Origin: a virus
DNA length: 38,742 nt
Strand: one strand, 5' to 3'
IMG/VR virus record: IMGVR_UViG_3300039002_000121
Location: 1-38,742 of that record
The notes beneath the pieces are model-generated. The model worked only from the letters and a program-made list of their open reading frames with translations, was not told the origin of the DNA and searched no databases. Made by a program: the position numbers and the translations under genes. Below are positions 18,161 to 31,927 of the stretch, one piece after another. The stretch's first letter is position 1. Each line of letters begins with the position of its first letter.

Positions 18161-19465
18161 TCACCCGATGGGTTGACCGTTCGGGCCGACCATCTCGGTG
18201 ACCATCGACTCCGCGACGTGCCCGCGCGCTTCCTGGAAGCCCGCGTTCACGAAGCCCTGCGGGCCCTGATACGTCATGCCCTGCGCCGCGAGCGTCGCCG
18301 GGCCTTGTGGACCGAAGCCTTGCGGAACTCCGATGGGGACGATGGCACCCTGACGCTCCGCCTTGCCGACGAGCGCTTGACCGCCGACGGACAGGTTGTC
18401 CGGAATGCCTTCGTCTCCCGACGCGATCTCGCTCATGCACTGACGCGCCCAGCGCTTCACGCCGCGGTACATGCCGTACGCCTCGATGTGCTGGTAGTCG
18501 TCGAGGCTCTTGTTCGGGATGGACTGGAGCGCCGCGAGCAGGTCCTCAGCGCGCATCCGCATGTTCTCCGGGACCTGCGGGGAGACCTGTTGACAGAGGA
18601 ACAGGATCTTCGGCTTCACGACCTCGGTCATCGCGACCGAGCCTGGGACCTGGCCCGGCATCGCCACGCCGGCTTGCATGCGCGTCGACTGGAGCTGCCC
18701 CTCGCCCGAGAAGATACCGCGCGTGGCGAGGTCCATCGAGATGAGCTCCTGCGCGCTCTTCGGCGGGGCGAAGTTGTGCGAGTTCGACGGCGAGACTTCC
18801 TGACCGTCGACCGCGCGCGTGGTGAGAAACTTTCGTTGCTCCTCAGCCGCCATCATCGCGGCCTCGACGTTCGGCGAGCCGTCTGGGTGGTACGCGTTCA
18901 GCTGCTTCGCGCGTGCCTGGTAGTAGGTCTCGACCTGCTCCGCGTCGAGCAGGATCATGTCCGGACGCCCGGCCCGCCGCTTCGCGAGCGCGCGGCGGAA
19001 GTTCGTCGACTTCTTCAGGATGGCGAAGTCGAAGTCCTCGGTGAGGTTCACCGGGTCCGGCGACGGGGGAACGAGCTTGCCTTGCGTCTGACCAGGCGCG
19101 ACCTCGATGTCGAGCGAGATCTGCATGTCGGTGAGGTTCTGAATCCAGACGTCACCGTCGGTCTTCTGCATGAAGTAATCGTTCCAGGAGTAACCCAGCT
19201 TGCGCTGAGTGATGCGCTTGGATGCGTCTTGTGACGAGGCGGGGGTAAGGTTCGGGGTCTGCGTCTCCATGGTCTGTCTCCTCACAGCTTCCCAAGTCGG
19301 AACTTCACGAACGCCAGGGGCCAACTTGATGACGAACGGCGCCTTATGAAGCACCGTCGCCATCTTGCTTCGAAGCAGCGTCCTCGCTTGAACCGGCGGA
19401 ACGTAACCTACGAACTGCCGGTCTTCGTCGACGACTACCACCTCGCCGTGGCGTCCTCTTCCCAC
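18161..19465 (-). CDS. Virion-type protein with N-terminal PLMP/RRXRR-like domain and nested start
   Basis: 434 residues from GTG at 19465. Residues 8-50 follow the pattern of the N-terminal PLMP domain of IscB-type proteins: VVVVDEDRQ, then 13 residues from the Asp to ARTLLR, then ATVLHKAPFVIKL, with the same spacing as the ARxLL...PFxI pattern I know from IscB. The literal RRxRR is absent. An ATG at 19270 (METQTPNLTP), with GAGGAG eight bases before it, opens the remaining 369 residues in the same frame; either this is a second product or the true start. The main part has a beta region (DVWIQNLTDMQISLDIEVAPG), helical segments and a Gly/Pro/Gln tail. It follows the major capsid and HNH genes, suggesting a head protein. 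No RuvC or HNH domain is fused. Confidence 0.7.
   Translation of the reverse strand: MGRGRHGEVVVVDEDRQFVGYVPPVQARTLLRSKMATVLHKAPFVIKLAPGVREVPTWEAVRRQTMETQTPNLTPASSQDASKRITQRKLGYSWNDYFMQKTDGDVWIQNLTDMQISLDIEVAPGQTQGKLVPPSPDPVNLTEDFDFAILKKSTNFRRALAKRRAGRPDMILLDAEQVETYYQARAKQLNAYHPDGSPNVEAAMMAAEEQRKFLTTRAVDGQEVSPSNSHNFAPPKSAQELISMDLATRGIFSGEGQLQSTRMQAGVAMPGQVPGSVAMTEVVKPKILFLCQQVSPQVPENMRMRAEDLLAALQSIPNKSLDDYQHIEAYGMYRGVKRWARQCMSEIASGDEGIPDNLSVGGQALVGKAERQGAIVPIGVPQGFGPQGPATLAAQGMTYQGPQGFVNAGFQEARGHVAESMVTEMVGPNGQPIG
19255..19272 (-). promoter_or_regulatory. Internal ribosome binding site and in-frame ATG
   Basis: GAGGAG lies about eight bases upstream of ATG 19270 inside an open frame that already encodes a recognisable domain upstream. 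It is stronger than the site before the outer GTG at 19465, where only GAGG is seen. This supports a nested second product lacking the PLMP-like domain. Confidence 0.6.
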
Positions 19466-19507: not shown

Positions 19508-20110
19508 TCACCCGACAGCGGCGGCGCCGACGCCGATGCCGTTCGTCGCGTGCAGGAATAGGAGCAGGTTCTTGCTGCCCTTGCTCGAGTTACATCGCTT
19601 GCACGCGGGCACGATGTTCTCGATGGAATTGGATGACCCGTGCGGCCATGACAGCGGCGTCATGTGCTCAGCCGCAAGGCTTTCGTACGGCCTGAGGCAG
19701 TACGCGCAGCGCCCTCCAAACTCCGCAACTCGGGTTGCGAACTCCGCCGCCGTAAACGCACCCGGAGCCTTTGCTGTGAGCGCACGGTACCGAGCTGTAC
19801 GCGCAACAGTTTGTTCGGGGTGGGCCTGCTGTCGCGCGAGTACCTTTGCGAGGCGAATCTCTCGATGCCGCGCGTAGGACTCGCGGTTGCGCTGCCGCTT
19901 TCTCTCGCGTGAAGCAGCGTCCGAATTGAGCCGAGCCCGCTCGGTTTCTCGCGCACGGTCCTTGTTCGAGTGGTACCAGGTTAGTGCCTGCGCGCGCCCG
20001 CGGGCAGCACGCGCAGGAACCGCCTGGTAGCAACGGTTGCACAGACCCCGGCGTGAGGGGGCCGCTGAGCCCCCGCACGCCGTACAAGTCCGTGTAATCG
20101 TTGAGGTCAT
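19508..20110 (-). CDS. HNH homing endonuclease
   Basis: 200 residues from ATG at 20110. An N-terminal zinc ribbon (CTACG at residue 9, CNRCY at 24) is followed by a long Arg/Glu-rich helix (about 45-115) and a C-terminal HNH nuclease: CAYC (135-138), AEHMTPLSW (147-155), ENIVPACKRCN (164-174), so the metal and zinc ligands are present. It begins 18 bases after the major capsid stop, the usual place for a free-standing homing gene next to a conserved essential gene. It separates the capsid gene from the PLMP-like protein. Its HNH core is of a different type from the one beside the sheath gene. Confidence 0.88.
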   Translation of the reverse strand: MTSTITRTCTACGGSAAPSRRGLCNRCYQAVPARAARGRAQALTWYHSNKDRARETERARLNSDAASRERKRQRNRESYARHREIRLAKVLARQQAHPEQTVARTARYRALTAKAPGAFTAAEFATRVAEFGGRCAYCLRPYESLAAEHMTPLSWPHGSSNSIENIVPACKRCNSSKGSKNLLLFLHATNGIGVGAAAVG

Positions 20111-20128: not shown

Positions 20129-21838
20129 CTACTTCATGCCCTTTGCGCACGCGCGCGGGTTGCTGATGACGAAGCCGATGATCTCGCCGAACGCCCAGCC
20201 CTTTACGAACCGGAACTGCGAGAACATGTTGAACGGCTCGGAGAAGAGCTCCACGCGGATGCCCATCTCGCCCATGTACTCGGGTCCGGTGACCGCGTAG
20301 AACGTGCCGGCCGGGACGACTTCCTCGACCTGCGTGCCTGCGCTCGTGATGATCACCGCGTTCAGGAACGAACCGATGTAACCGGCGAGGATCAACTCGC
20401 GCTCGGTCACCGGGTCGACCTGCGAGGACATCGTCTTGACGATGTCGGAGAGTTCCGCACGGTTGATGAGGAACTTCTCGACCACCAGACGGTGCCGCTC
20501 GACCTGGTAGCGGACGTCTTCGAACGCCGCCACGCCGAGGCTCGTGAAGGAGGTGACCGCGTTCACGGTCTGGGCGGCGACGTCGATAAGTGCTCGACCT
20601 CGCTTGTCTTCCTCCAACTCGATTTCTTGACGCGCTGTGTCTTGAGCGCGGTCAAGGACATCGTAGTTCATCTGGTAGATGTCCTCGATGTCGACCGTCG
20701 GGAAGCTTCCGATCTTGAACTCGGACGGCGTCACGTACCGACCGAACAGGCGCGCCTCGAGGCCCTGGCCGTCCTGGCCGATGACCCACGCGGTGGACCG
20801 AACGTCCTTCGCGATACGGAACAGCTCGCCTTGGGCGAGCGGCCGCACGCGATACACCTTCCGAGCCCAGCCTTCGTAGTCGACCAGGTCCTTGATCGGC
20901 AGGAGTAACTCCTGCCCCATGATGGCGAAGCCTTCCGGGTCCTGCGTCGCGGCGGCCAGGATCTGACGGCGTTCCTCCGTCATCATCTGCTGCGCCTGAC
21001 GGTTGAACCGCGCGAAGCGGGCCTCGCGCCCGGCCGTCGTCAGCACGTGCTTGATCTGGACGAGAGCGTCCCTCGAGTTGTCCGCGTTCAGCTGGTTGTT
21101 CGCGCCGAACATCCGCTGACGAGGATCCGGAACCGCGCCCTGAAGCGCACCACGCCAGCCGCCGAACGCGACCGGGTTGAAGTTCCCGCCCGGCTCGAAC
21201 AGCTGCTCATCGGCGCGCGAGGCGAAGTGCTGGATCGGCTGCGCGTAACTCGGGAGGCTGGGCATCCCACCCTGCACCGCCTGCTGAAGCGCGGGCGCCT
21301 GGTACTGCGGGACCTGCGGCTGCTGCCACTGACCCTGCTGCACGAAGCCCTGCTGCATCGGCATCGGCGGGGCGAACTGCGGCTGTCCGTACTGTGCCTG
21401 CGGCATCCCGTACTGCGGCTGCTGCGGCTGCCCGGGACCCATGCCGCCCTGTTGCCACTGGTTGTACCAGTTCTGGGCGGAGGCCTGTTGCTGCTGCATC
21501 TGCGCCTGCGCGCGCATCGCCGACTGGGCGTACTGCGCGCGATACATCTGCCGCTGCTCGTGCGGCGTCAGCGGGCGCTGCTGCGCCTGCTGCGCCATCT
21601 GCGCCTGCTGATAGGCCAGCTGCTGTTGCTGCGCGTACGCCTGCTGGGCGTACTGCTGCGGCGCGTACTGGGCCTGCATCTGCATCGGCTGCTGCTGCGG
21701 GACGAACTGACCCGGCTGTCCTCCCGGGACGACCTGCAAGGCAGCTTGCCGCTGCTGCACGGTCTGGTTGGCCGCCACGTTCGCGGGCGTGCGCTGCCCG
21801 TTGACGACTTGGCGGTAGACATTGAGTGCTGCTACCAC
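20129..21838 (-). CDS. Major capsid protein with Gln-rich N-terminal extension
   Basis: 569 residues from GTG at 21838, preceded by GAAGGAG. From about residue 205 onward it looks like an HK97-fold capsid protein: helix and E-loop region (REARFARFNRQAQQMM), P-domain (FPTVDIEDIYQMNYDVLDRAQDTARQE), and C-terminal A-domain ending FGEIIGFVISNPRACAKG. The order after portal, protease/scaffold and a small beta protein confirms it. Residues ~26-202 are almost pure Gln/Ala/Pro/Met/Tyr (QQQ, YAQQ, GQPQ repeats), a prion-like composition. The extension could be a delta-domain scaffold removed by the protease, or stay as an internal or surface tether. The start is unambiguous because no other start with a ribosome site lies nearer the core. 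Confidence 0.88.
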   Translation of the reverse strand: MVAALNVYRQVVNGQRTPANVAANQTVQQRQAALQVVPGGQPGQFVPQQQPMQMQAQYAPQQYAQQAYAQQQQLAYQQAQMAQQAQQRPLTPHEQRQMYRAQYAQSAMRAQAQMQQQQASAQNWYNQWQQGGMGPGQPQQPQYGMPQAQYGQPQFAPPMPMQQGFVQQGQWQQPQVPQYQAPALQQAVQGGMPSLPSYAQPIQHFASRADEQLFEPGGNFNPVAFGGWRGALQGAVPDPRQRMFGANNQLNADNSRDALVQIKHVLTTAGREARFARFNRQAQQMMTEERRQILAAATQDPEGFAIMGQELLLPIKDLVDYEGWARKVYRVRPLAQGELFRIAKDVRSTAWVIGQDGQGLEARLFGRYVTPSEFKIGSFPTVDIEDIYQMNYDVLDRAQDTARQEIELEEDKRGRALIDVAAQTVNAVTSFTSLGVAAFEDVRYQVERHRLVVEKFLINRAELSDIVKTMSSQVDPVTERELILAGYIGSFLNAVIITSAGTQVEEVVPAGTFYAVTGPEYMGEMGIRVELFSEPFNMFSQFRFVKGWAFGEIIGFVISNPRACAKGMK

Positions 21839-21881
21839 TTTCGTTTCTCCTTCTTTGGTGTCGTCTTCGGAGGGAGCCCGG

Positions 21882-21917: not shown

Positions 21918-22676
21918 CTAGACGGGGTTCCCGTGGATGGTCATCCCCAGATAGGGGTCGTCGCTGGTCGGGAGCTGATGCACCCGTCCGACGAAGTCGT
22001 TCGCCGCCACGGACGTCGCCTGGCCGTTCGCGTTGCAGAACAGGCGGAAGTTCGAGGTCGCCGTCTGATACTGCTGCGAGGTGTCGTACTCCATGGTGAA
22101 GAGCCGCGACCAATCCGTGATGATCGCGATCCGGTCTTCCTGACCGGTCACCATGTCGTTGTTCTGGTTTCGGAACGTGTTGCCGTCGAACTGGAAGTCG
22201 GTGGCGGTGAGCTGGTACGTATACGTGACGAACACGGTCGAGCCATCCGGGATGGCGCCCAGCGCGACGCGCGTGATCTGGCCGGCGCCAGCGGTCACGG
22301 TGTAATCGACGCCGCCGCCCGTGTAGAGCGTGCCGCCGAAGTTCGCGGCGCTTCGCACGGCGACGTTGCTCACGTTCGGCCGCTTCAAGTTCGTCGGCGT
22401 GGTACCGTTCAGGACGATGGCCTCGTCCACGTTCACGGAGACGCCGAACTGCTGCTTGTCCCACTTGAAGACGCCGATGACTCCCGACCCGGTCGAGGGG
22501 ATCACGAAGCCGTTGACGTCGTACGTCGCGAACTGCCCGGCCCGGATGGTCGTGGCGTCCGTGGTGATGTACGTCCCGAGGTCGTCGCCGATCTTCGACC
22601 GGCGAAGGTCGAGTCCCTTCTGGAAGACCTGGTTTTGGAAGGCCCCCATCCTGGACGTGGTTCCGATGCTGCCCAT
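21918..22676 (-). CDS. Probable capsid decoration or head-stabilising protein
   Basis: 252 residues from ATG at 22676 (MGSIGTTSRMGAFQNQVFQKGLD). It is beta-rich with Gly/Thr turns (RAGQFATYDVNGFVIP, GGGVDYTVTAGAGQITRV, STVFVTYTYQLTATDF). This fits trimeric decoration proteins that sit between protease/scaffold and major capsid genes in many phages. The position is the main argument. No enzymatic motif was seen. It ends 79 bases before the capsid start, with a hairpin in between. Confidence 0.68.
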   Translation of the reverse strand: MGSIGTTSRMGAFQNQVFQKGLDLRRSKIGDDLGTYITTDATTIRAGQFATYDVNGFVIPSTGSGVIGVFKWDKQQFGVSVNVDEAIVLNGTTPTNLKRPNVSNVAVRSAANFGGTLYTGGGVDYTVTAGAGQITRVALGAIPDGSTVFVTYTYQLTATDFQFDGNTFRNQNNDMVTGQEDRIAIITDWSRLFTMEYDTSQQYQTATSNFRLFCNANGQATSVAANDFVGRVHQLPTSDDPYLGMTIHGNPV

Positions 22677-22709: not shown

Positions 22710-25700
22710 TTAGTTCATGGCCCGAAGTCGGCCCAGGGTGGAGCTCACCAGCGTTCCCTGGACTGCGCCGCGAATGGCCGTGCGCTTGTCGAAACCGCCC
22801 GGACCCGGGGCACCAGGTCCTGGCTCATCCGACGGTTGAGGACTGACTGCGAAATTGCCCTGGAGCGCCGCCGTTCTCATCTGCTGCGCGTAGAGCGCGG
22901 TCGTGTCGACCGGCTGCACGTGCGACGCAGTGATGGGCGGGAGGGCCATCTGGAAGTTCGCGGCGTCGGCCTCGGCGTCGAGGAGATACTGGTCTCCCTT
23001 CGCCATCAGGTCGGCGGCGCGATTCATGAGGTGCTCGAGATGCGGTGCGTGTCCGCTTTGATAGATCTCGGCGACGAGGAAGCGGACCAGCTCGGGGTCC
23101 ATGCCGTTGAACTGGATGGGTGCTCCGCTCGCCGGGTCGACGCCGATGTTCCTGGTCGTACCGAGGAGCTGTTCAGCCGCCTGGCGAAGCGGCGACGCTT
23201 CGAGGTTCGAGGCCTGACGCTTTGCTGCGATGCGGAGCGCGCGGCAGAACGCCCCGATGGTCGCGAGCTTCACCTGCTCGAGCTCCTCTTCGTGCGCCTG
23301 CTTGAGCTTTGCCTCCTTGGCGGCCCAGGCCTGCTTCATCCGCTTCTCAGCGGTCGCGATGGCCTGCCGCGCGTTCGGCTCCTGCCGCGCGTTCGGCTCC
23401 TGCGGAGCCGGAATGGCGGCTGCGCGCGGAGTGGGCGTCGCTGAAGGCGCGCGCGGCGCCGTCGGCGCCTGCGGCTTCGCGGGGACGGTCGTCCGCGCGG
23501 CGACCGCGGTCGGCTTCGGCGGCTCGATGCCGGCCGAGCGGAGCTGCGCGTCGGTCGCGGTCGTGACCAGGAGGTTGTTCTCGACCTCGGCCTTGATGCC
23601 CGCATTCCGAAGCGCCTGGATCTGGACGTGCGATGCGGTGACCGAGACTCGTCGGACGGCCGGGTCGCCCGGCTTCCGCGGCATTGCGAGCGGCTTGTCG
23701 AGCGAGCGCCAGAACTCGAGCAGGTCCTTCTGCCCGATCTTGCGCGGCGGCTGCCCGTCGGCGATGACCGAGACCTCGACGCTGCCGTCGGTGGCCTGCG
23801 CGGCCAGCCGAACGGTCCAGGCGAGCTCGGGCTTCGCGGTATGCGCGATCTTGGCGCCGATGCGAGCGAGCTTGGCCAGCTTCTCCTGGTGGTCGTGGAT
23901 CTCGTCGTCGAGCGCCGAATCGCCCATGTTGAACTTCTCCCGCTTCTCGCGCATGTCGCTGTTGTCGTCCGTGGCCACGCCATCGACTCCTTCGGGCTTG
24001 CCGTCTTGATGGTCGACGATGCCGTCGTCCTGCGTGGAGCCGTACGGCTCGCCGCGAACGTCGCCGTTCATGTCGTCGGTGTTCTCGTCGGGGACGTGAT
24101 CCGGCGGCTCGGCGCGCTCGGGCTGCATGTCGTCGCGCGCGTCTTCGAGGACGGAGTCGTGGGTGTACTTGTCCGCGAACTCCTTCATGTCATCGATGGC
24201 GCCGTCGACGACCTGCGCCACGACCGGAGTGAAGATGCCCTTCATCTTCATTGCGGTCGCGACGAGGCCTTCGGACAGGATCGAAGTCATCACGGCGCGC
24301 CCGAAAGCGTGCCGCTTCTGCGGGTCGTTCGAGGGCTCGCCGCGAACGACAAGGACCGGCTCCTTGTTCGCGGTGAACACGCGGACGTTGCCCTGCGGCG
24401 AGACTTCGACCGCGTAGCCGCGATAGGTGTTGGCAAAGCGCATCAGCTTGCTCCTTGCGCTGCGCCCCGGAGCGGCGGCGCCGGGCGGCAGCATCCCCAT
24501 CTCGGCGGGGGACATCTGTTGCTGCGGACCCTGCGGCGTCGGCTGCGGGCCGGGCGCGGTCTCTTGGTTTTGGAGGTCGTCGATGGAAGTTGGTGGCTGC
24601 TGTCCGGGCGCGCCGGGCGCGCCGGGCTGACCTGGCGTGTTCCCTGGCGGCTGGACGACGATCGGCTCGTTCGGGGGCGCTTGAACGACGACGTCGGCAT
24701 CGCGCTCGTTCACGGGCTTGGCCTGCGCCGGGTCGAACTTCGAGAGCGCCTCTTCCGCGCTCGTCGCGTCGACGTCGCAGTAGTCGACCTTCGCCTCGTC
24801 CGGCGACTCGAGTCCTGCCGCCGCGAGCGCCTCGTCGATGGTCGCGCCCGCGTGGAGGTCGCGGTCATCGCCATCGACGCGGATGACGACGAACTTGCCG
24901 GCTGCCATCTGGCGCATGGCCTGTCGCCGCATCGCGGTCGAGCGGATGAGGTCTTCGGTCTCGGACCGGAGCTCGTCCTGCGACGGGATCCGCGGACCGG
25001 TAAAGCTTGCGGTCCGAAGGATCTCGCGCTGGCGCGCCTTCGGGTCCGCCGGCTGGTCGACCCTCGAGTACTCGTCGAAGATGACCCACTGGCAGTACTC
25101 GAAGGCCTTCCGCACCTCGAAGCCGTCAGCGGTGAGGAAGCAGAAATCGGTCGAGTCCCAGCGAAGACCGCGCTTCTCTGCTTCGCGCTGCACCTCGAAG
25201 GGAGAAGTCTTGGCCCAGACGCTGCCCTGACGCTTCCAGAGGGAGCCCTTGTTGCCGGCGCGGATGTGCTCGCAGAACTCCGGCCTGCTGTACGCGATGT
25301 GATGGCAGACGTTGCACTCGGTCGAAAGGCAGTTACAGCCCATCGAACCGGCATCGAGCTGTCCGGTACGCACGCCTTCGGCGAACGCGCGGTCCTTCCG
25401 ACCGTCGATGCCGAGCAAGATCTCGACGAACTCGTCCTTCACCAGATGACCGCAGCGGCGGCAGTGCAGACCGTCGCTGCCTCGGTTCTGCCGGAGCGCG
25501 GTGTGAAGCGAGCAGCGCGGGCAGTTGTCGAGCGGCGGAGCTTCGTCGTTGTAGTGCGAGTCGATGATGACGCCGCGAGCGGCCTTCGGGTTGTCGGTCT
25601 TGTGGTTGACGTGGTGAGCCTTGCCTACGTAGGTCCTGAAGACCGGAAGCCCGAGCTTCACGTCGAAGCGGAGGAGCTCCTTCTGCTGGAAGCCGTCGTT

Positions 25701-25952
25701 GTTCTCGTTCGGGCAGTTCGTCGTGTTCGCCCGGATGGCTTCGAATAGGTAGTCCTTCGGGTCCGAGCTGAGCGCGTAGGTCGCTGCCACCTTCTGAAGG
25801 AGCTTGCTGACCGGGATGACGCGAGCGCCGTCGAGGTAGTAACTCTTCGCGCGCGGTGTCTCGACCGATTGCGCGATGCGCTGAAGTCGGTCGCGCGCCG
25901 CCTCAGCGAAGCCGACAGTGCGGACGTCCGCTTGCTTGTAGAAGCCCATCAC
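22710..25952 (-). CDS. Prohead protease fused to scaffold
   Basis: 1080 residues from GTG 25952 (the second codon, ATG 25949, is equally possible). Residues ~70-235 resemble prohead proteases of large phages: NTTNCPNENNDGFQ, KAHHVNHKTDNPKAARG (candidate catalytic His near 113-117), VEILLGIDGRKDRAFAEGVRTG and SMGCNC (candidate Ser 203). Cysteine pairs CPRC (144), CRRC (164) and others (C206, C208, C213, C216, C227) suggest zinc sites. A Pro/Gln/Gly linker (about 440-500) leads to an acidic, then Pro/Ala-rich region and a C-terminal coiled coil (AEKRMKQAWAAKEAKLKQAH onwards), as in internal scaffolds. It would cut scaffold and capsid proteins during head maturation. It comes after portal and before decoration and capsid genes, the classic order. 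Confidence 0.8.
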   Translation of the reverse strand: MMGFYKQADVRTVGFAEAARDRLQRIAQSVETPRAKSYYLDGARVIPVSKLLQKVAATYALSSDPKDYLFEAIRANTTNCPNENNDGFQQKELLRFDVKLGLPVFRTYVGKAHHVNHKTDNPKAARGVIIDSHYNDEAPPLDNCPRCSLHTALRQNRGSDGLHCRRCGHLVKDEFVEILLGIDGRKDRAFAEGVRTGQLDAGSMGCNCLSTECNVCHHIAYSRPEFCEHIRAGNKGSLWKRQGSVWAKTSPFEVQREAEKRGLRWDSTDFCFLTADGFEVRKAFEYCQWVIFDEYSRVDQPADPKARQREILRTASFTGPRIPSQDELRSETEDLIRSTAMRRQAMRQMAAGKFVVIRVDGDDRDLHAGATIDEALAAAGLESPDEAKVDYCDVDATSAEEALSKFDPAQAKPVNERDADVVVQAPPNEPIVVQPPGNTPGQPGAPGAPGQQPPTSIDDLQNQETAPGPQPTPQGPQQQMSPAEMGMLPPGAAAPGRSARSKLMRFANTYRGYAVEVSPQGNVRVFTANKEPVLVVRGEPSNDPQKRHAFGRAVMTSILSEGLVATAMKMKGIFTPVVAQVVDGAIDDMKEFADKYTHDSVLEDARDDMQPERAEPPDHVPDENTDDMNGDVRGEPYGSTQDDGIVDHQDGKPEGVDGVATDDNSDMREKREKFNMGDSALDDEIHDHQEKLAKLARIGAKIAHTAKPELAWTVRLAAQATDGSVEVSVIADGQPPRKIGQKDLLEFWRSLDKPLAMPRKPGDPAVRRVSVTASHVQIQALRNAGIKAEVENNLLVTTATDAQLRSAGIEPPKPTAVAARTTVPAKPQAPTAPRAPSATPTPRAAAIPAPQEPNARQEPNARQAIATAEKRMKQAWAAKEAKLKQAHEEELEQVKLATIGAFCRALRIAAKRQASNLEASPLRQAAEQLLGTTRNIGVDPASGAPIQFNGMDPELVRFLVAEIYQSGHAPHLEHLMNRAADLMAKGDQYLLDAEADAANFQMALPPITASHVQPVDTTALYAQQMRTAALQGNFAVSPQPSDEPGPGAPGPGGFDKRTAIRGAVQGTLVSSTLGRLRAMN
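23363..23398. repeat. 18-bp tandem duplication within the scaffold region
   Basis: The unit CCTGCCGCGCGTTCGGCT occurs twice in direct succession and begins a third time. It encodes repeated QEPNAR on the minus strand. A recent slippage event is the simplest explanation. Confidence 0.8.
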
Positions 25953-26161: not shown

Positions 26162-28531
26162 CTACGGCGCTCCTACGAGCAAGCGCGCGTCGTCCTCTTT
26201 GTCCAAGGAATCCAGCTCCTTGTCCAAGTTGAAGGCCTTCTTGCCTTTCGGCGTGCCGCCAAGCACGCGTTCCAATTTTAGGATGTCCTCCAACGTCATG
26301 ATGTCTTCGGCAGGGTATCCTTCGATTTCAAGCCACTCTTCGACGGCGTCCCAGAAGCCTTCGCCGTCGCCATGCCGCGCGAACTCGGCGATGCCGGGGC
26401 GCTCGGTGACCATGCGGTCCCAGGCCTCTTCCTCGGGAGCCTCGCCCTCAAAGAGCCCGAGCAGGTCCGCGACGGTGCCCTCTTCCCAGTTGCCGCAGCG
26501 CCCGTTCTGCCAGATGGCCGGCTTCTTCCATTGCCGTCCCCCAGGGCCGCCGCTCTCGCCAGGGCCTGCATGGACGCCGGCCTCGGGCGGGCCTGGCGGA
26601 GCTCCGCCGCCCTCGCCTGGAGCACCGGGCGCGCCAGGCTCGCCGCCGGGGAAGCCCATCGACTCGGGCGCGAGGCCCGGCATCATCCCACCGCCGCCAC
26701 CGCCGCCTTCGCCGCCGGCGGGCTGCATGAGCGCCATCTGGAGCGCCGGGTTCTTCTGGATGAGCTTCTGCTCGATCTCAGCCTCACGCGCGCGTTGCGT
26801 GAGCTCCTCTTCCCAGTCGCGGCCGCTGAGCGAGGCCAGATACTGCTTGCTGAAGACGACGCCCATCTGCGTGAGCGCCTGGACCGCTTGGATCTGCGCC
26901 TGCTCGACGGATGGGTCGAGCTGTCGTGCCCACTCGAGCGTCGGGATGATCCACCTGTTGTCTTCGAGGAGGTCCTGCTTCGAGCGGCGTGTTCGCACAC
27001 CGTGTGCGAGCTCGGCGTCGGTCGGCTTGACCCAGGCGTTCATGACCGCGAGCGGCTTGAAGAACTTCGGGACGATCCAGGCCGCCTCGAAGTACTCACG
27101 GAGGGCCTTGAGCCGCTGCAGGAAGACCGTCAGGCCGGATGCCGCGCTCGCGTAAGTAACCTCGCCGTGGAGGAAGGCCTTCGAGATGCCGAGCGCGATG
27201 AGCTTGATGCGCTCGATCAGGTCCCAGTGCTTGTCGATGGTCATGACCCGGTCGGTGGTGCCGACAAGGTCGAACTCGATGCCGTAGTGGTAGACGATCC
27301 AGGCGTGCGGGTCGAGCTCCGCCTGGGCGAGCAGCTCGAGGAGCCGCTGCTCGTGCGACGGGTCCGGAATCCAGCCGGTCGCGCGGTCGCCGAGCTTCGC
27401 GACCTTGATGGGGCCGGCGTGCCGGCGCGCGGTCGCGATGGACGCGTTGAAGATCGCGTCCTCGTACATGAGCGCCCGCCACATCCGCGAAAGGATCGAA
27501 GTGCCCCGGACATCGTACGGGTGCATCTTGCGCGGCAGGAACGTGAAGTTCAGCGGGTGGAGCTCGATGGGCTGTCCGCTCATCAGTGCCGACAGGAGCT
27601 CGGGCGGCATCGACTCGCGGACGTGCCGTACCATGTCCGAGCCCGAAGCCAGGACCTGCTGGAGCCGGTTGTCCGGCTTGAACCGGACGATGGGGTCCAT
27701 CTTGATGAACGGGGTGTGGATGACCTCGAGCTGGTCGGGGTTGTGCATCCCGACGTAGGTCCAGATGCCCTGGCTCTTGTCGTAGAAGCACTGCGGACAC
27801 GCCTCGCCGGTCACGAGGTACTCGCGGACGAAGTAAGGTAGCAGCGCGCGGATGTTGCAGACCTCCCACGCACGCTCGAAGGTGTCCTTCACCTCGCCGT
27901 CGACGCCTTCGCCGGTGAACTCGACGTCGCCGAATGGGAGCTCGGAGTACATGTCGACGCCGTTTCCGATGATGGCGTCGAGCTTGTAGAAGAGCCGCCA
28001 GTAGATGTTCGCGAGGTTTCTGTGGATCGGGTAGTTCTGCCGGTCCGGCGATTCGAACTCGGGCTGGTACGGACGCTGCGTCTGTTGGAAGACGTTCCCG
28101 CCCGCGAGCTGACCGCCGCCCGGGAGCGAGATAGAGCCGCCCGTTCGGCGCATGTCGTAGTGGTTCTGCATCGCCTGGCGGTAGCCAGCGCCGGCGTTCG
28201 GCGCGAGCTGCGCACCGGCAGGGAGCAGGTCCGAGAAGAAGTCTTGCGCGCGCCCGGGTCCGCCTGCGGTCGCCATCCGCGGGACGAAGCTTTCGAAGCG
28301 GTCCTGCATGCGCCGCTGCTCCATCGGAGAACGGCCGCCCATCCAATCGGCGCCGTACCAGCCAGCCTGCATCGGGCGCCCGGGGTGCCATGGGACAGCT
28401 GAATCCGCGAGCGGATTTGCAGCGGCCGCCCCGCGCTGCTGCGCGGCCGCGTGCGCAGTAGCGAGCATGTTCGCGCGAGCTGCCTGCGTGCGCGGGTCGC
28501 CGTACTTCCCGTAGACTTCGATGTTAGCCAT
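26162..28531 (-). CDS. Portal protein
   Basis: 789 residues from ATG at 28531 (MANIEVYGKYGDP), with GAGGAAG eight bases upstream. Key stretches are YPIHRNLANIYWRLFYKLDAI (about 167), the wing/stem-like IRALLPYFVREYLVTGEACPQC (228-248), FIKMDPIVRFKPDN, and RGTSILSRMWRALMYEDAIF. These match the dodecameric portal of T4-like and jumbo phages, which forms the DNA entry vertex and docks the terminase. The C-terminus has a Gly/Pro-rich linker (about 600-670) followed by acidic helices (WEEGTVADLLGLFEG, ending KELDSLDKEDDARLL), an addition not typical of small portals. Order after terminase and before protease agrees. It overlaps the HAD gene by eight bases. Confidence 0.85.
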   Translation of the reverse strand: MANIEVYGKYGDPRTQAARANMLATAHAAAQQRGAAAANPLADSAVPWHPGRPMQAGWYGADWMGGRSPMEQRRMQDRFESFVPRMATAGGPGRAQDFFSDLLPAGAQLAPNAGAGYRQAMQNHYDMRRTGGSISLPGGGQLAGGNVFQQTQRPYQPEFESPDRQNYPIHRNLANIYWRLFYKLDAIIGNGVDMYSELPFGDVEFTGEGVDGEVKDTFERAWEVCNIRALLPYFVREYLVTGEACPQCFYDKSQGIWTYVGMHNPDQLEVIHTPFIKMDPIVRFKPDNRLQQVLASGSDMVRHVRESMPPELLSALMSGQPIELHPLNFTFLPRKMHPYDVRGTSILSRMWRALMYEDAIFNASIATARRHAGPIKVAKLGDRATGWIPDPSHEQRLLELLAQAELDPHAWIVYHYGIEFDLVGTTDRVMTIDKHWDLIERIKLIALGISKAFLHGEVTYASAASGLTVFLQRLKALREYFEAAWIVPKFFKPLAVMNAWVKPTDAELAHGVRTRRSKQDLLEDNRWIIPTLEWARQLDPSVEQAQIQAVQALTQMGVVFSKQYLASLSGRDWEEELTQRAREAEIEQKLIQKNPALQMALMQPAGGEGGGGGGGMMPGLAPESMGFPGGEPGAPGAPGEGGGAPPGPPEAGVHAGPGESGGPGGRQWKKPAIWQNGRCGNWEEGTVADLLGLFEGEAPEEEAWDRMVTERPGIAEFARHGDGEGFWDAVEEWLEIEGYPAEDIMTLEDILKLERVLGGTPKGKKAFNLDKELDSLDKEDDARLLVGAP

Positions 28532-29837
28532 AGAGCGCTTCCTCGAGCTCGGGCGGGCGCGGAATGCCGCGCGACCCGCGGTCGCCCATCGGGTCATCAA
28601 AGTCGTTATCGCTCTCTTGGAAGTCGAGCGGGCCGCCGTCACCAGTCCCAGCGCCCTGCGCGCCGAGCGACGCCTCCTCGGTCGAGGGCCCGCGCGGCGG
28701 CGCGTCGACGAGCGTGAGCTGCTCGAGCACCGAGGGCCAGTCGCCGTCGAAGCGGATGGCCTTGTTGTCGACGAAATAGTCCGCGCGCGGCTTCCGCCCG
28801 ACCCAGATGTCCGAGAACGGAATCTGCTGCGAGGTCAGATGCTGCGCGATCTCGTTCGCCCACTGCGCGACCGTCGCGTCATTGAGCTTGTCGTCGCCAA
28901 AGCGCGCCGAGAACACCGAGATGCGCCAACCGAGCCGAGCGAGCTCCGACAGCGCATCCCGCGCGCCGGGGAGCGGCGGTCCGAGCGGAAGCTGGCCCGA
29001 CGGCCCGGTCGGAGGGTACGGCTTTGGTACGTCGGCGAGGATGGTGCCGTCGAGGTCGACTGCCACCCACGGTTTCCGTTGCGCGCTCACTTCGCTCCTT
29101 TGGAGCTCCATTGAGCGCGCTGCATAGTACCGGAAGCCGCGAAAGCCGCTCATCGGGATCGGCGTGACGTGATGGATCTCGGGGCGCATTAGGATGCGGC
29201 CGCTCGAGTGGTCCATCCCGGTGACGTCGTGATAGGCACGCACGGCGTCGTCCCAGACGAAGTAGATGCGACGCGGCTGCTCGCGCGGGAGGCGTCCCAT
29301 TTCCCAGTAGTAACCAAGCCCCTGCTTGTTTGCTTGCTCTTCGGCCTCGACCTCGCGCAGCCGGAGCTTCGGGATGGTGACGACGATGTCGCGCCCTCCG
29401 GTCGGCTCGTTCACGGCGCCCATATGGAGCTCGGTGCCGCCGCCATCATCGAACTGATTCTGGGAAGAGTAACTCTGGTCCCAGAGCGTAGCCTGGCCGT
29501 ACGGGACGTGCTGCCGGTTCTGCGACTCGGTCAGGTCCTTCAGGTCGCGGCCCTTCTCGCCTTCGACGTGCTCGTCCACGCCGCCTTCGTGGTACGGCAT
29601 CTTTTGGTTCAAGTCGAACTCGAGGTTGTCGGGCGTGTCGTAGTCGGCGTTCGACGGGAAGAGTACCGGCTGCGAGACCGGCATCCGGCCAGAATCGACC
29701 GGGTCGTCCGGCATCACCTGGTCATGGCTGTCGGTGTTGACGATGTCCTTCGTGCCGCCGCCACCGCTCCCGTAGGCGCGCCGCTGATGCGCTGCGAGCC
29801 GTGCGAAGAACCGGTCATTTCGCCAAGCGCCTCTCAC
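28524..29837 (-). CDS. Two-part protein with C-terminal HAD-family phosphatase domain
   Basis: 437 residues from GTG at 29837, which overlaps the terminase stop as GTGA and has AAAGGA eight bases upstream; a TTG at 29858 is less likely. The C-terminal ~130 residues carry HAD motifs: VAVDLDGTIL with D261 and D263, SVFSAR with S310, K349 in GRKPRADYFVDNKAI, and acidic residues D353/D357. The PPLPGARDALSELARLGW segment is typical of small phage HAD phosphatases. The first ~255 residues (acidic, then GRDIVVTIPKLRLREVEAEE and YYWEMGRLPREQPRRIYFVW) match nothing I know. Substrate unknown: nucleotides, DNA 3'-phosphate and phosphoprotein are all possible. Its place between terminase and portal is odd for an enzyme. 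Confidence 0.78.
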   Translation of the reverse strand: MRGAWRNDRFFARLAAHQRRAYGSGGGGTKDIVNTDSHDQVMPDDPVDSGRMPVSQPVLFPSNADYDTPDNLEFDLNQKMPYHEGGVDEHVEGEKGRDLKDLTESQNRQHVPYGQATLWDQSYSSQNQFDDGGGTELHMGAVNEPTGGRDIVVTIPKLRLREVEAEEQANKQGLGYYWEMGRLPREQPRRIYFVWDDAVRAYHDVTGMDHSSGRILMRPEIHHVTPIPMSGFRGFRYYAARSMELQRSEVSAQRKPWVAVDLDGTILADVPKPYPPTGPSGQLPLGPPLPGARDALSELARLGWRISVFSARFGDDKLNDATVAQWANEIAQHLTSQQIPFSDIWVGRKPRADYFVDNKAIRFDGDWPSVLEQLTLVDAPPRGPSTEEASLGAQGAGTGDGGPLDFQESDNDFDDPMGDRGSRGIPRPPELEEALYG

Positions 29838-31927
29838 CAGCCACGTCCTTTCGACCAATTTCGTGGGCTGCCGCCGCTCACGCGCACGAGCTGCCCGCGG
29901 CCGTTCCCCCAGGTCGAGCCACCGTGCTCGGCGCGACGACGCGCCGAGCGTACGGAACGGTCGTCGAACTTGTCGGTGTAGCCGGCGCGCTGAATGTTCC
30001 GGTGGAGATGGACAACGATCCGCGCGAGGTCGTCCGAGTGCTGACCACGTACCTCACCCTTGTGCGGGTTGTGGACCTTCTTCGTGTCCGGGTCGCACTG
30101 GAGCTCGACGAGCTCGGAGATGATCGCCGACTCGGGCTGGAGGAGGTTCTGCGCCTTCGTCCACTCGAACGGGACGCGCCAGCTGCCATCGGCATCGGTC
30201 TTCACGTCCTCCGCTGCGGGCGGAAGCATCTTCATCCGCCCTTCGAAGCAGTTCACGTTCCAGTCGAGGAAGTCCTGGTTCGAGAGCGCCTCCTGCTCGG
30301 CTGGGATACCGAGGTCGCGGATCTTCTGGATGAGCTGCACCGAGTTCCAATGGTCAAACCACGCGAACGAGGTGAACTGGAACTTCTTGAGCTCGACCAT
30401 CAAGTCGAAGACCGAGTCGAACCACACCTCAAGTCCCTGCTCGGGCACGATGCGGAAGACCCAGTCGATGACCGTAGCGAGGCGCTCTTCACGCTCTTCG
30501 GTGAGCCGCCACTCTCCGTGTCCGCAGATGCCGGTGAAGCAGTCGAAGTTCTTGCCGGCGTCGAAGACGACTTGGCGGCCAACGCGCCGGTCGAACATGC
30601 GGTCGGCGTTCTTGAGCCGGACGCCGATGTAGCGCTGTCCAAGCGGGTCGTTCCGGTAGAAGTACTCGAAGCGCGCCCGTGGCCGAAGCGCCTTGTCGAT
30701 GGTGATCGCCGTCCAGCGTGCCTCGTCGTGGACGAGTGGGAACTCGGCTCCGGGCGGGTCCGCACCGAAGTCGCGCGCGGCGCCGATGGGGTCCTTCTTG
30801 AAGTCGAGCTCGAAGTTCTCGCGCGGCTCGCGCGGGTTGAAGTCCCACGTCGCATAGTGGCGCGCGTACATCCCAGGGATCTCGTCCGACTGCCGGTAGA
30901 GCTCGAGCGTCTTGCCGGTCCGCGAGCGCGGCGAGGAGAGCGAGATCATCGAGCCGAACCACGGCATGCACCCGTTCAGCTTCGCGCTCGAACGGATGGT
31001 GTGGAGCTGACCTTCGATGGTTCGGTAGACCTCCGTCGCCGAGATGCGGCTCTCGCCCTCCATCAGGTAGTCGAGCTCATCGACGATGCCGTGGACACGC
31101 GTACGACCGACCTGACCCGAGCTGTTCGACGTCAGGTTCGCGATGACGAGCCGGATGTTCGGGTGCTCGTTGGTGATGCGCTTCGACTCCTCGGAGTAGC
31201 GCCAGGGCTTCATCTTCCGCGCCGGCGGGAGCTGGTTCTTCTCTTCGTCGCCGACCCACGAGACGTACTGGTGGAACCAGGGCGCGTTCCGCCGGTAGCC
31301 AGTATACTTCGCCCAGACGGTGTCTTGACCCGCGACTTCGGTCGAGGCGAGGAACGTCATCTCGAACTGCTCGGCCGGTGTGATCCCGAAGTAGCCGTGG
31401 ATGCCGCCCGGGTACGTGTGTCCGAGGACGAGCCAGACGTGCTCGAAGTAGGTCGCGATGAGCGCCGCCGTGATCGACTTGCCGCTGCGCTTTCCGGCGG
31501 CGACGTGGAGTTGGTTGTTTCCTTCGAAGAAGCCGTCTTCGATCAGCTCGGAGCGTGTAATGCCGCACTTCGGGCAGGTGTCTTCGAGGTTGTCCTGGTC
31601 CCAGACCAGCAGGACTTCGGACTCGAGGTATGTTCGGCTCCGGCCCCAGCAGTCGCCGGGTTGTCCAGGTTCGATGCCGCCTGGGTTACACACCGGACAA
31701 CGGAGCTCGAAGTAATTCCGGATGATCTCGTAGCTTCGCTGAAACTGGTAGAGGTCCGGCGCGTTCACGTACTCGTAACTCACGCACCACTCGATGGCGT
31801 TCGGCGCCATTTTCATGATGCGCTGCGCAGCTTCATTCAGGCGGACGGGGGCCTTTCCGGCATCACGGTTCGCGAAGTTGGCCTCGAGGATAGGGCCAAG
31901 ATTCAGCTCGAGTCCGGCAGCCGTCAT
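29834..31927 (-). CDS. terL: Terminase large subunit
   Basis: 697 residues from ATG at 31927 (ATGA overlap with the upstream stop). The ATPase domain has Walker A GKRSGKS (145-151), Walker B IVDEL (281-285) and a coupling motif around ISLSSPRS (329-336). The nuclease domain has acidic residues D456 (VVFDAG), D504 (VWFDSVFD) and SDDLAR (631-636), the usual RNase H-like trio. It packages DNA into the prohead at the portal and cuts the concatemer. An insertion between the N-terminus and Walker A holds CPVC (77-80) and CPKC (118-121), a likely zinc ribbon. The C-terminal ~50 residues are Arg/Gly-rich. No obvious small terminase is adjacent. Confidence 0.93.
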   Translation of the reverse strand: MTAAGLELNLGPILEANFANRDAGKAPVRLNEAAQRIMKMAPNAIEWCVSYEYVNAPDLYQFQRSYEIIRNYFELRCPVCNPGGIEPGQPGDCWGRSRTYLESEVLLVWDQDNLEDTCPKCGITRSELIEDGFFEGNNQLHVAAGKRSGKSITAALIATYFEHVWLVLGHTYPGGIHGYFGITPAEQFEMTFLASTEVAGQDTVWAKYTGYRRNAPWFHQYVSWVGDEEKNQLPPARKMKPWRYSEESKRITNEHPNIRLVIANLTSNSSGQVGRTRVHGIVDELDYLMEGESRISATEVYRTIEGQLHTIRSSAKLNGCMPWFGSMISLSSPRSRTGKTLELYRQSDEIPGMYARHYATWDFNPREPRENFELDFKKDPIGAARDFGADPPGAEFPLVHDEARWTAITIDKALRPRARFEYFYRNDPLGQRYIGVRLKNADRMFDRRVGRQVVFDAGKNFDCFTGICGHGEWRLTEEREERLATVIDWVFRIVPEQGLEVWFDSVFDLMVELKKFQFTSFAWFDHWNSVQLIQKIRDLGIPAEQEALSNQDFLDWNVNCFEGRMKMLPPAAEDVKTDADGSWRVPFEWTKAQNLLQPESAIISELVELQCDPDTKKVHNPHKGEVRGQHSDDLARIVVHLHRNIQRAGYTDKFDDRSVRSARRRAEHGGSTWGNGRGQLVRVSGGSPRNWSKGRGW

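Follow-up and report, generated by a model that had tools for sequence, protein, structure and literature searches.

Results

The window, that is, the whole stretch of viral DNA analysed here (38,742 nucleotides), carries head genes on its minus strand in the order terminase, portal, 1080-aa ORF, 252-aa structural protein and major capsid protein (MCP). The terminase large subunit (29834..31927, minus strand) matches phrog_17415 with an E-value of 5.1e-43, and the portal protein (26162..28642, minus strand) matches phrog_16240 with an E-value of 7.7e-85. The MCP gene (20129-21838, minus strand) encodes 569 residues from a GTG start at 21838 to a stop at 20129, and residues 26-202 of its product are 36% Gln. 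Thus, the original prediction was right in its coordinates and in calling the product a major capsid protein whose N-terminal region is long and Gln-rich.

The Shine-Dalgarno (SD) sequence AAGGAG (21847..21852, minus strand) lies 8 nt 5' of the GTG, and its strength of -8.8 kcal/mol tops that of every in-frame start candidate. The sole other notable candidate is ATG192, which has the SD-like GGTGGG (-7.1 kcal/mol, near the 5th percentile of the values at random positions). An N-terminal motif, residues 1-22 (MVAALNVYRQ...; 21773..21838, minus strand), is common to the relatives: N-[PV]-[YF] stands at the MCP N-terminus in 64 of 66 sequences, as read from their listing, and N6 and Y8 are invariant in a 17-sequence MCP alignment. 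Because nearly all relatives share this motif, the start codon is confirmed, and the GTG start with its strong SD sequence is well supported. A start near residue 205, which would have refuted the original prediction, is contradicted by the same two features. On the other head genes of the window and of the related loci the NPY motif was not found, apart from two marginal ORFs in loci L090 and L119, and its role as a general capsid-targeting signal was rejected for this reason.

Residues 282-569 (20132..20995, minus strand) form the HK97-fold core, as indicated by profile, PDB and Foldseek matches. The profile phrog_2522 (PHROG 2522) matches residues 247-568 with an E-value of 4.3e-58, the NCBIfam profile NF042927, which covers the shell core, scores 159 bits (cut-off 80), and the sequence of phage G gp27 (PDB 6wkk) matches residues 284-566 with an E-value of 1.2e-35; Pfam gave nothing for the MCP. 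AlphaFold2 with 76 window and locus sequences predicted the core from residue 321 on with pLDDT 75-97, while an earlier run with 16 sequences gave a core pLDDT of 45, too low to use for the core. The best Foldseek matches of the MCP model were HK97 proheads (E-value 2.5e-10). The gene product is the precursor of an HK97-fold MCP and belongs to the phage G / PaBG / Bxz1-group family.

The 1080-aa ORF contains a head maturation protease domain in residues 1-320 (24993..25952, minus strand; phrog_18299, E-value 1.2e-22). Among 51 sequences, at least 90% keep H117 and S203-M-G of this domain. The C-terminal domain of the ORF, at about residues 860-1080 (22710..23375, minus strand), is putatively scaffold-like. 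Seven relatives have a protease gene of about 300 aa followed by a separate gene of 607-724 aa with a net charge of -4 to -48, and the C-terminal part of the latter matches that of the window ORF with E-values of 1e-7 to 1e-17. We infer that the separate gene and the C-terminus of the ORF correspond to the scaffold, so that the window ORF would be a protease-scaffold fusion. Taken as a whole, the fusion protein is just mildly acidic; it contains acidic blocks. A scaffold-like part thus lies in the protease ORF, which argues against a scaffold fused to the MCP. The protease and scaffold-like regions (22710-25952, minus strand) are fused in the window and near relatives and split in at least seven others, constituting a natural fusion/fission series. 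The genes at the scaffold position in PaBG and Yoloswag carry net charges of -103 and -143; these extremely acidic genes (L026:1347-3278 and L027:1035-3077) are annotated as '60S ribosomal-like protein L2-A' and 'putative ATPase', which look wrong. The gene directly upstream of the MCP gene (21918..22676, minus strand) encodes a 252-aa virion structural protein at the position of the phage G capsid decoration gene gp26, and by synteny it may have the same function. The original prediction also pointed out Gln/Pro/Gly-rich stretches in the portal and protease proteins. They are real, although they resemble linkers between domains.

Scanning viral contigs yielded some 90 related loci, and the relatives include one MAG contig labelled Actinomycetes and, among named phages, Virus Rctr197k. 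Arm length, counted from the start codon up to residue 204, ranged from 16 to 203 residues in 66 non-redundant sequences. In a tree of the 66 cores, the window MCP and those of L019, L039, Rctr197k and L038 form one clade (support 99/92) with arms of 203, 168, 127, 84 and 64 aa, respectively, containing 22-33% Gln. Elsewhere in the tree the arms have 16-74 residues (mostly 16-60) and at most 20% Gln, and another clade has Arg/Ser-rich arms. L040, whose incomplete core kept it out of the tree, has an arm of 100 residues with 17% Gln and resembles the Gln-rich group. A net positive charge was found in 65 of the 66 arms, and the median number of acidic residues was one. In L092 (5842-7140) and L100 (1124-2410), which belong to another clade, the arm is Arg/Lys/Ser-rich without Gln, with a net charge of up to +0.40 per residue. 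The long Gln-rich arm is an expansion in a single clade. Virus Rctr197k (KX853510, APU88875) and the uncultured viruses L019, L038 and L039 share with the window the N-terminal motif, the delta-like domain and the gene order; their arms are also Gln-rich (22-32%) but only 64-168 aa long versus 203.

A delta-like pre-core domain of about 78 residues, partly helical, sits between the arm and the HK97 core (residues 204-281; 20996..21229, minus strand). It is common to the short-arm relatives and partly to the PaBG-group phages. Residues 205-281 were found in the aligned relatives with G218, N221, P222, F244, A252 and Q261 invariant, AlphaFold2 predicted a helix at 255-299, and the part GE[IL]NA...KDAxxQI is common to the PaBG, Yoloswag and HRDY3 group. 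By alignment, residues 205-281 are a delta-like element of the usual kind, preceded by the Gln-rich arm as an insertion. The original prediction held that the Gln-rich part is fused straight onto the HK97 core in place of a delta domain, and it stated beforehand that a conventional domain at this place in close relatives would count against it. Such a domain is present both in the short-arm relatives and in this MCP, so the arm adds to the delta domain and does not replace it.

Inside the clade, identity to the window MCP is 41-64% in the arm, 46-54% in residues 204-281 and 89-92% in residues 282-569. With the closest relative, L019, rough Nei-Gojobori estimates of dN/dS were 0.29/0.85 (about 0.34) in the arm, where the alignment is uncertain, 0.40/1.06 (about 0.38) in residues 204-281 and 0.08/0.96 in residues 282-569.

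The arm itself (residues 23-203; 21230..21772, minus strand) reaches such a length only in this lineage. Residues 26-202 contain 36% Q (63/177), 14% A, 12% P, 7% G, 6% M and 6% Y, with a single acidic residue; given 5.4% Gln in the neighbouring proteins, the binomial probability of this Gln content is about 2e-34. The Gln residues are interspersed, with a longest run of four, and do not form polyQ. An origin by CAG slippage was rejected because the CAG runs are too short, the longest having three codons. GC3 is close in the arm (0.91) and the core (0.87), which together with dN/dS fits a translated and selected protein. A patch in the arm, TP...QR...QSAMRAQ...QNWY.QWQQ, is kept in L019 and in part in L039. 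The original prediction proposed a homologue search with the arm alone. In our scan of viral contigs, which reaches close relatives only, the arm-type relatives it brought up were all MCPs and none lay outside them. A literature search over open-access titles and abstracts gave nothing relevant on Gln-rich phage capsid proteins. The Gln-rich composition and the approximately 280 residues before the core are unusual, and within this limited search no description of them was found in open-access papers.

Sequence rich in Gln and Ala can lead AlphaFold2 to predict too many helices. In both runs it placed arm helices at residues 61-84/87 and 92-130; their pLDDT, averaged by block, was about 70-88, except that one block of the first run had 52. 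Outside them the pLDDT of the arm was mostly low. The first predicted helix (residues 61-87; 21578..21658, minus strand) is Gln/Ala-rich, and the second (residues 92-130; 21449..21565, minus strand) is the site of the patch best kept in L019 (QSAMRAQ...QNWYxQWQQ), with which it is partly shared. Coiled-coil or amphipathic helices were rejected, since the hydrophobic moment did not exceed that of shuffled sequences (84 and 328 of 1000 shuffles). We speak of possible helices because of this result and the overcalling. The disorder claimed in the original prediction therefore holds for most of the arm and not for the two predicted helical stretches. The arm is Q/N-rich, as prion-like domains are (63/177 Q; up to 35 Q+N per 80 residues). 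However, its PAPA maximum in disordered windows was -0.007, under the threshold of 0.05, which disagrees with the prion-like nature claimed originally. The low score is probably due to Pro and Ala. The arm is best called, on the models, low-complexity with possible helices, neither simply disordered nor demonstrated prion-like.

Maturation reportedly lowers the mass of the PaBG MCP by about 20% (PMC7412058). This value is an estimate from a gel and a tryptic map, and PaBG is a distant homologue (about 27% identity); 20% corresponds to about 74 of its 368 residues, by alignment about its whole pre-core region. The MCPs of PaBG, Yoloswag and HRDY3 have the core and the GE(I/L)NA...KDAxxQI element as here, but only about 25-35 aa before that element, without a Gln-rich arm or NPY motif. 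Bxz1-type MCPs (333 aa) have a region of about 50 residues at the pre-core position. Bacillus phage G gp27 has a homologous core and a decoration gene directly upstream, as here, but at 282 aa it is without any pre-core region, and its start aligns with window residue 282 or so. A conserved cleavage motif was not found near MCP residues 272-289, a stretch among the less conserved, and there is no fixed A-X-E there. If the pre-core regions were retained, they would amount to about 50 MDa in a head of assumed T=27, whereas 197 kb of DNA weighs about 128 MDa, and this favours their removal. By homology with the processed PaBG MCP and the core-only phage G MCP, the whole pre-core region of about 280 residues is probably removed in this phage. 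Cleavage by the adjacent protease, as suggested originally, is thus in keeping with a nearby maturation protease that probably removes the arm.

Long N-terminal MCP segments cut by the prohead protease at known sites have been described for SPN3US gp75 and T4 gp23, with 130 and 65 residues removed, respectively; 254 residues are removed from the SPN3US portal protein and 111-254 from head proteins other than the MCP, as given in excerpts of two reports (PMC5694885, PMC10052503). These excerpts do not mention a Gln-rich arm like the one here. The values for SPN3US do not bear out the original view that known segments of this kind are shorter, and the approximately 280 residues here would extend the known range.

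Discussion

The fold, family and maturation scheme of this MCP are already known, and the arm is an unusual elaboration, not a new system. We consider it somewhat likely, at roughly 55%, that the pre-core region is a removable pro-region that acts inside the prohead together with the scaffold-like protein and is cut by the protease. The MCP N-terminus would then have three parts, namely a short conserved motif, a freely varying tether and the conserved delta-like domain (residues 205-281), and in this lineage the tether would have grown from tens of residues to about 180 by Gln-rich expansion. Most likely the whole pre-core region faces the prohead interior during assembly, where the acid-poor, net-positive tether and the terminal motif may make contact with the scaffold-like portion of the protease-scaffold fusion. 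Before DNA packaging, the protease domain would cut the region off, presumably near residue 282.

The main rival, which overlaps with the removable pro-region, is tolerated drift: the arm would have no function of its own, indels would accumulate in a discarded pre-core region, and the Gln bias would come from GC-rich CAG codons. Arm length indeed shifts freely among close relatives (168 aa in L019 vs 203 aa in the window, with 55 gap columns), wider relatives manage with 16-60 aa, and arm composition depends on the clade. On the other hand, dN/dS in the arm is near that of the delta-like domain, the patch is kept in L019 and partly in L039, Q-richness is held across the clade, and nearly all arms are net positive. 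Drift is possible, though we think it rather improbable.

The original prediction suggested that coat protein is concentrated by the arm, acting as a scaffold that is intrinsically disordered or forms condensates. The strongly biased composition, with Gln accompanied by Y, M and P, the low pLDDT outside the two predicted helices and the G/P/Q-rich stretches of the protease and portal are consistent with this idea. However, relatives of the same clade with 89-92% identical cores do with arms of 64-84 aa, a dedicated scaffold-like protein is present, the PAPA maximum is low, and two arm stretches are predicted to be helical. A need for the arm as an assembly scaffold is therefore not supported, and this explanation is unlikely.

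Low-complexity extensions occur on some capsids, and this general fact is all that speaks for an arm kept and exposed on the mature capsid for surface display or adhesion. In HK97-type proheads the delta-like domain lies inside. Since the arm is N-terminal to that domain, the PaBG homologue is processed, and a separate decoration-like gene adjoins the MCP gene, display is very improbable. Translation from a downstream start such as ATG192, leaving the Gln-rich part unmade or giving two forms, has a noticeable SD-like sequence in its favour but hardly deserves credence in view of the stronger SD sequence of the GTG, the shared N-terminal motif, dN/dS below 1 along the arm and the absence of M192 from L019.

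Returning to the removable pro-region, a more daring version of it is that the Gln-rich, partly helical arm concentrates or spaces coat subunits on the scaffold and is then destroyed by the protease, serving a single lineage as a one-time condensate-like aid; we hold this to be a long shot. The MCPs form a natural series in which near-identical shells carry arms of 16 to 203 residues, and it could be used to test what long propeptides do in large phages. The role of long capsid propeptides is called open in the excerpts of the SPN3US papers (PMC5694885, PMC10052503).

Some further observations concern the MCP gene and its 3' side. In L019, the MCP gene is split by a 278-nt group I intron (L019:5853-6130; Rfam RF00028, 75.6 bits), which falls after the codon for D317 in window numbering; read across it, the gene encodes a 536-aa MCP. 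Directly 3' of the window MCP gene lies an HNH endonuclease gene (19508-20110, minus strand) with a match in only one relative locus, and in mycobacteriophage LinStu an HNH gene also directly follows the MCP gene. The first 50 or so residues of the ORF at 18161-19465 (minus strand) match RRXRR (PF14239) below the cut-off, and a similar stretch precedes its L019 counterpart. This stretch may be a homing-endonuclease remnant or the product of an over-extended start.
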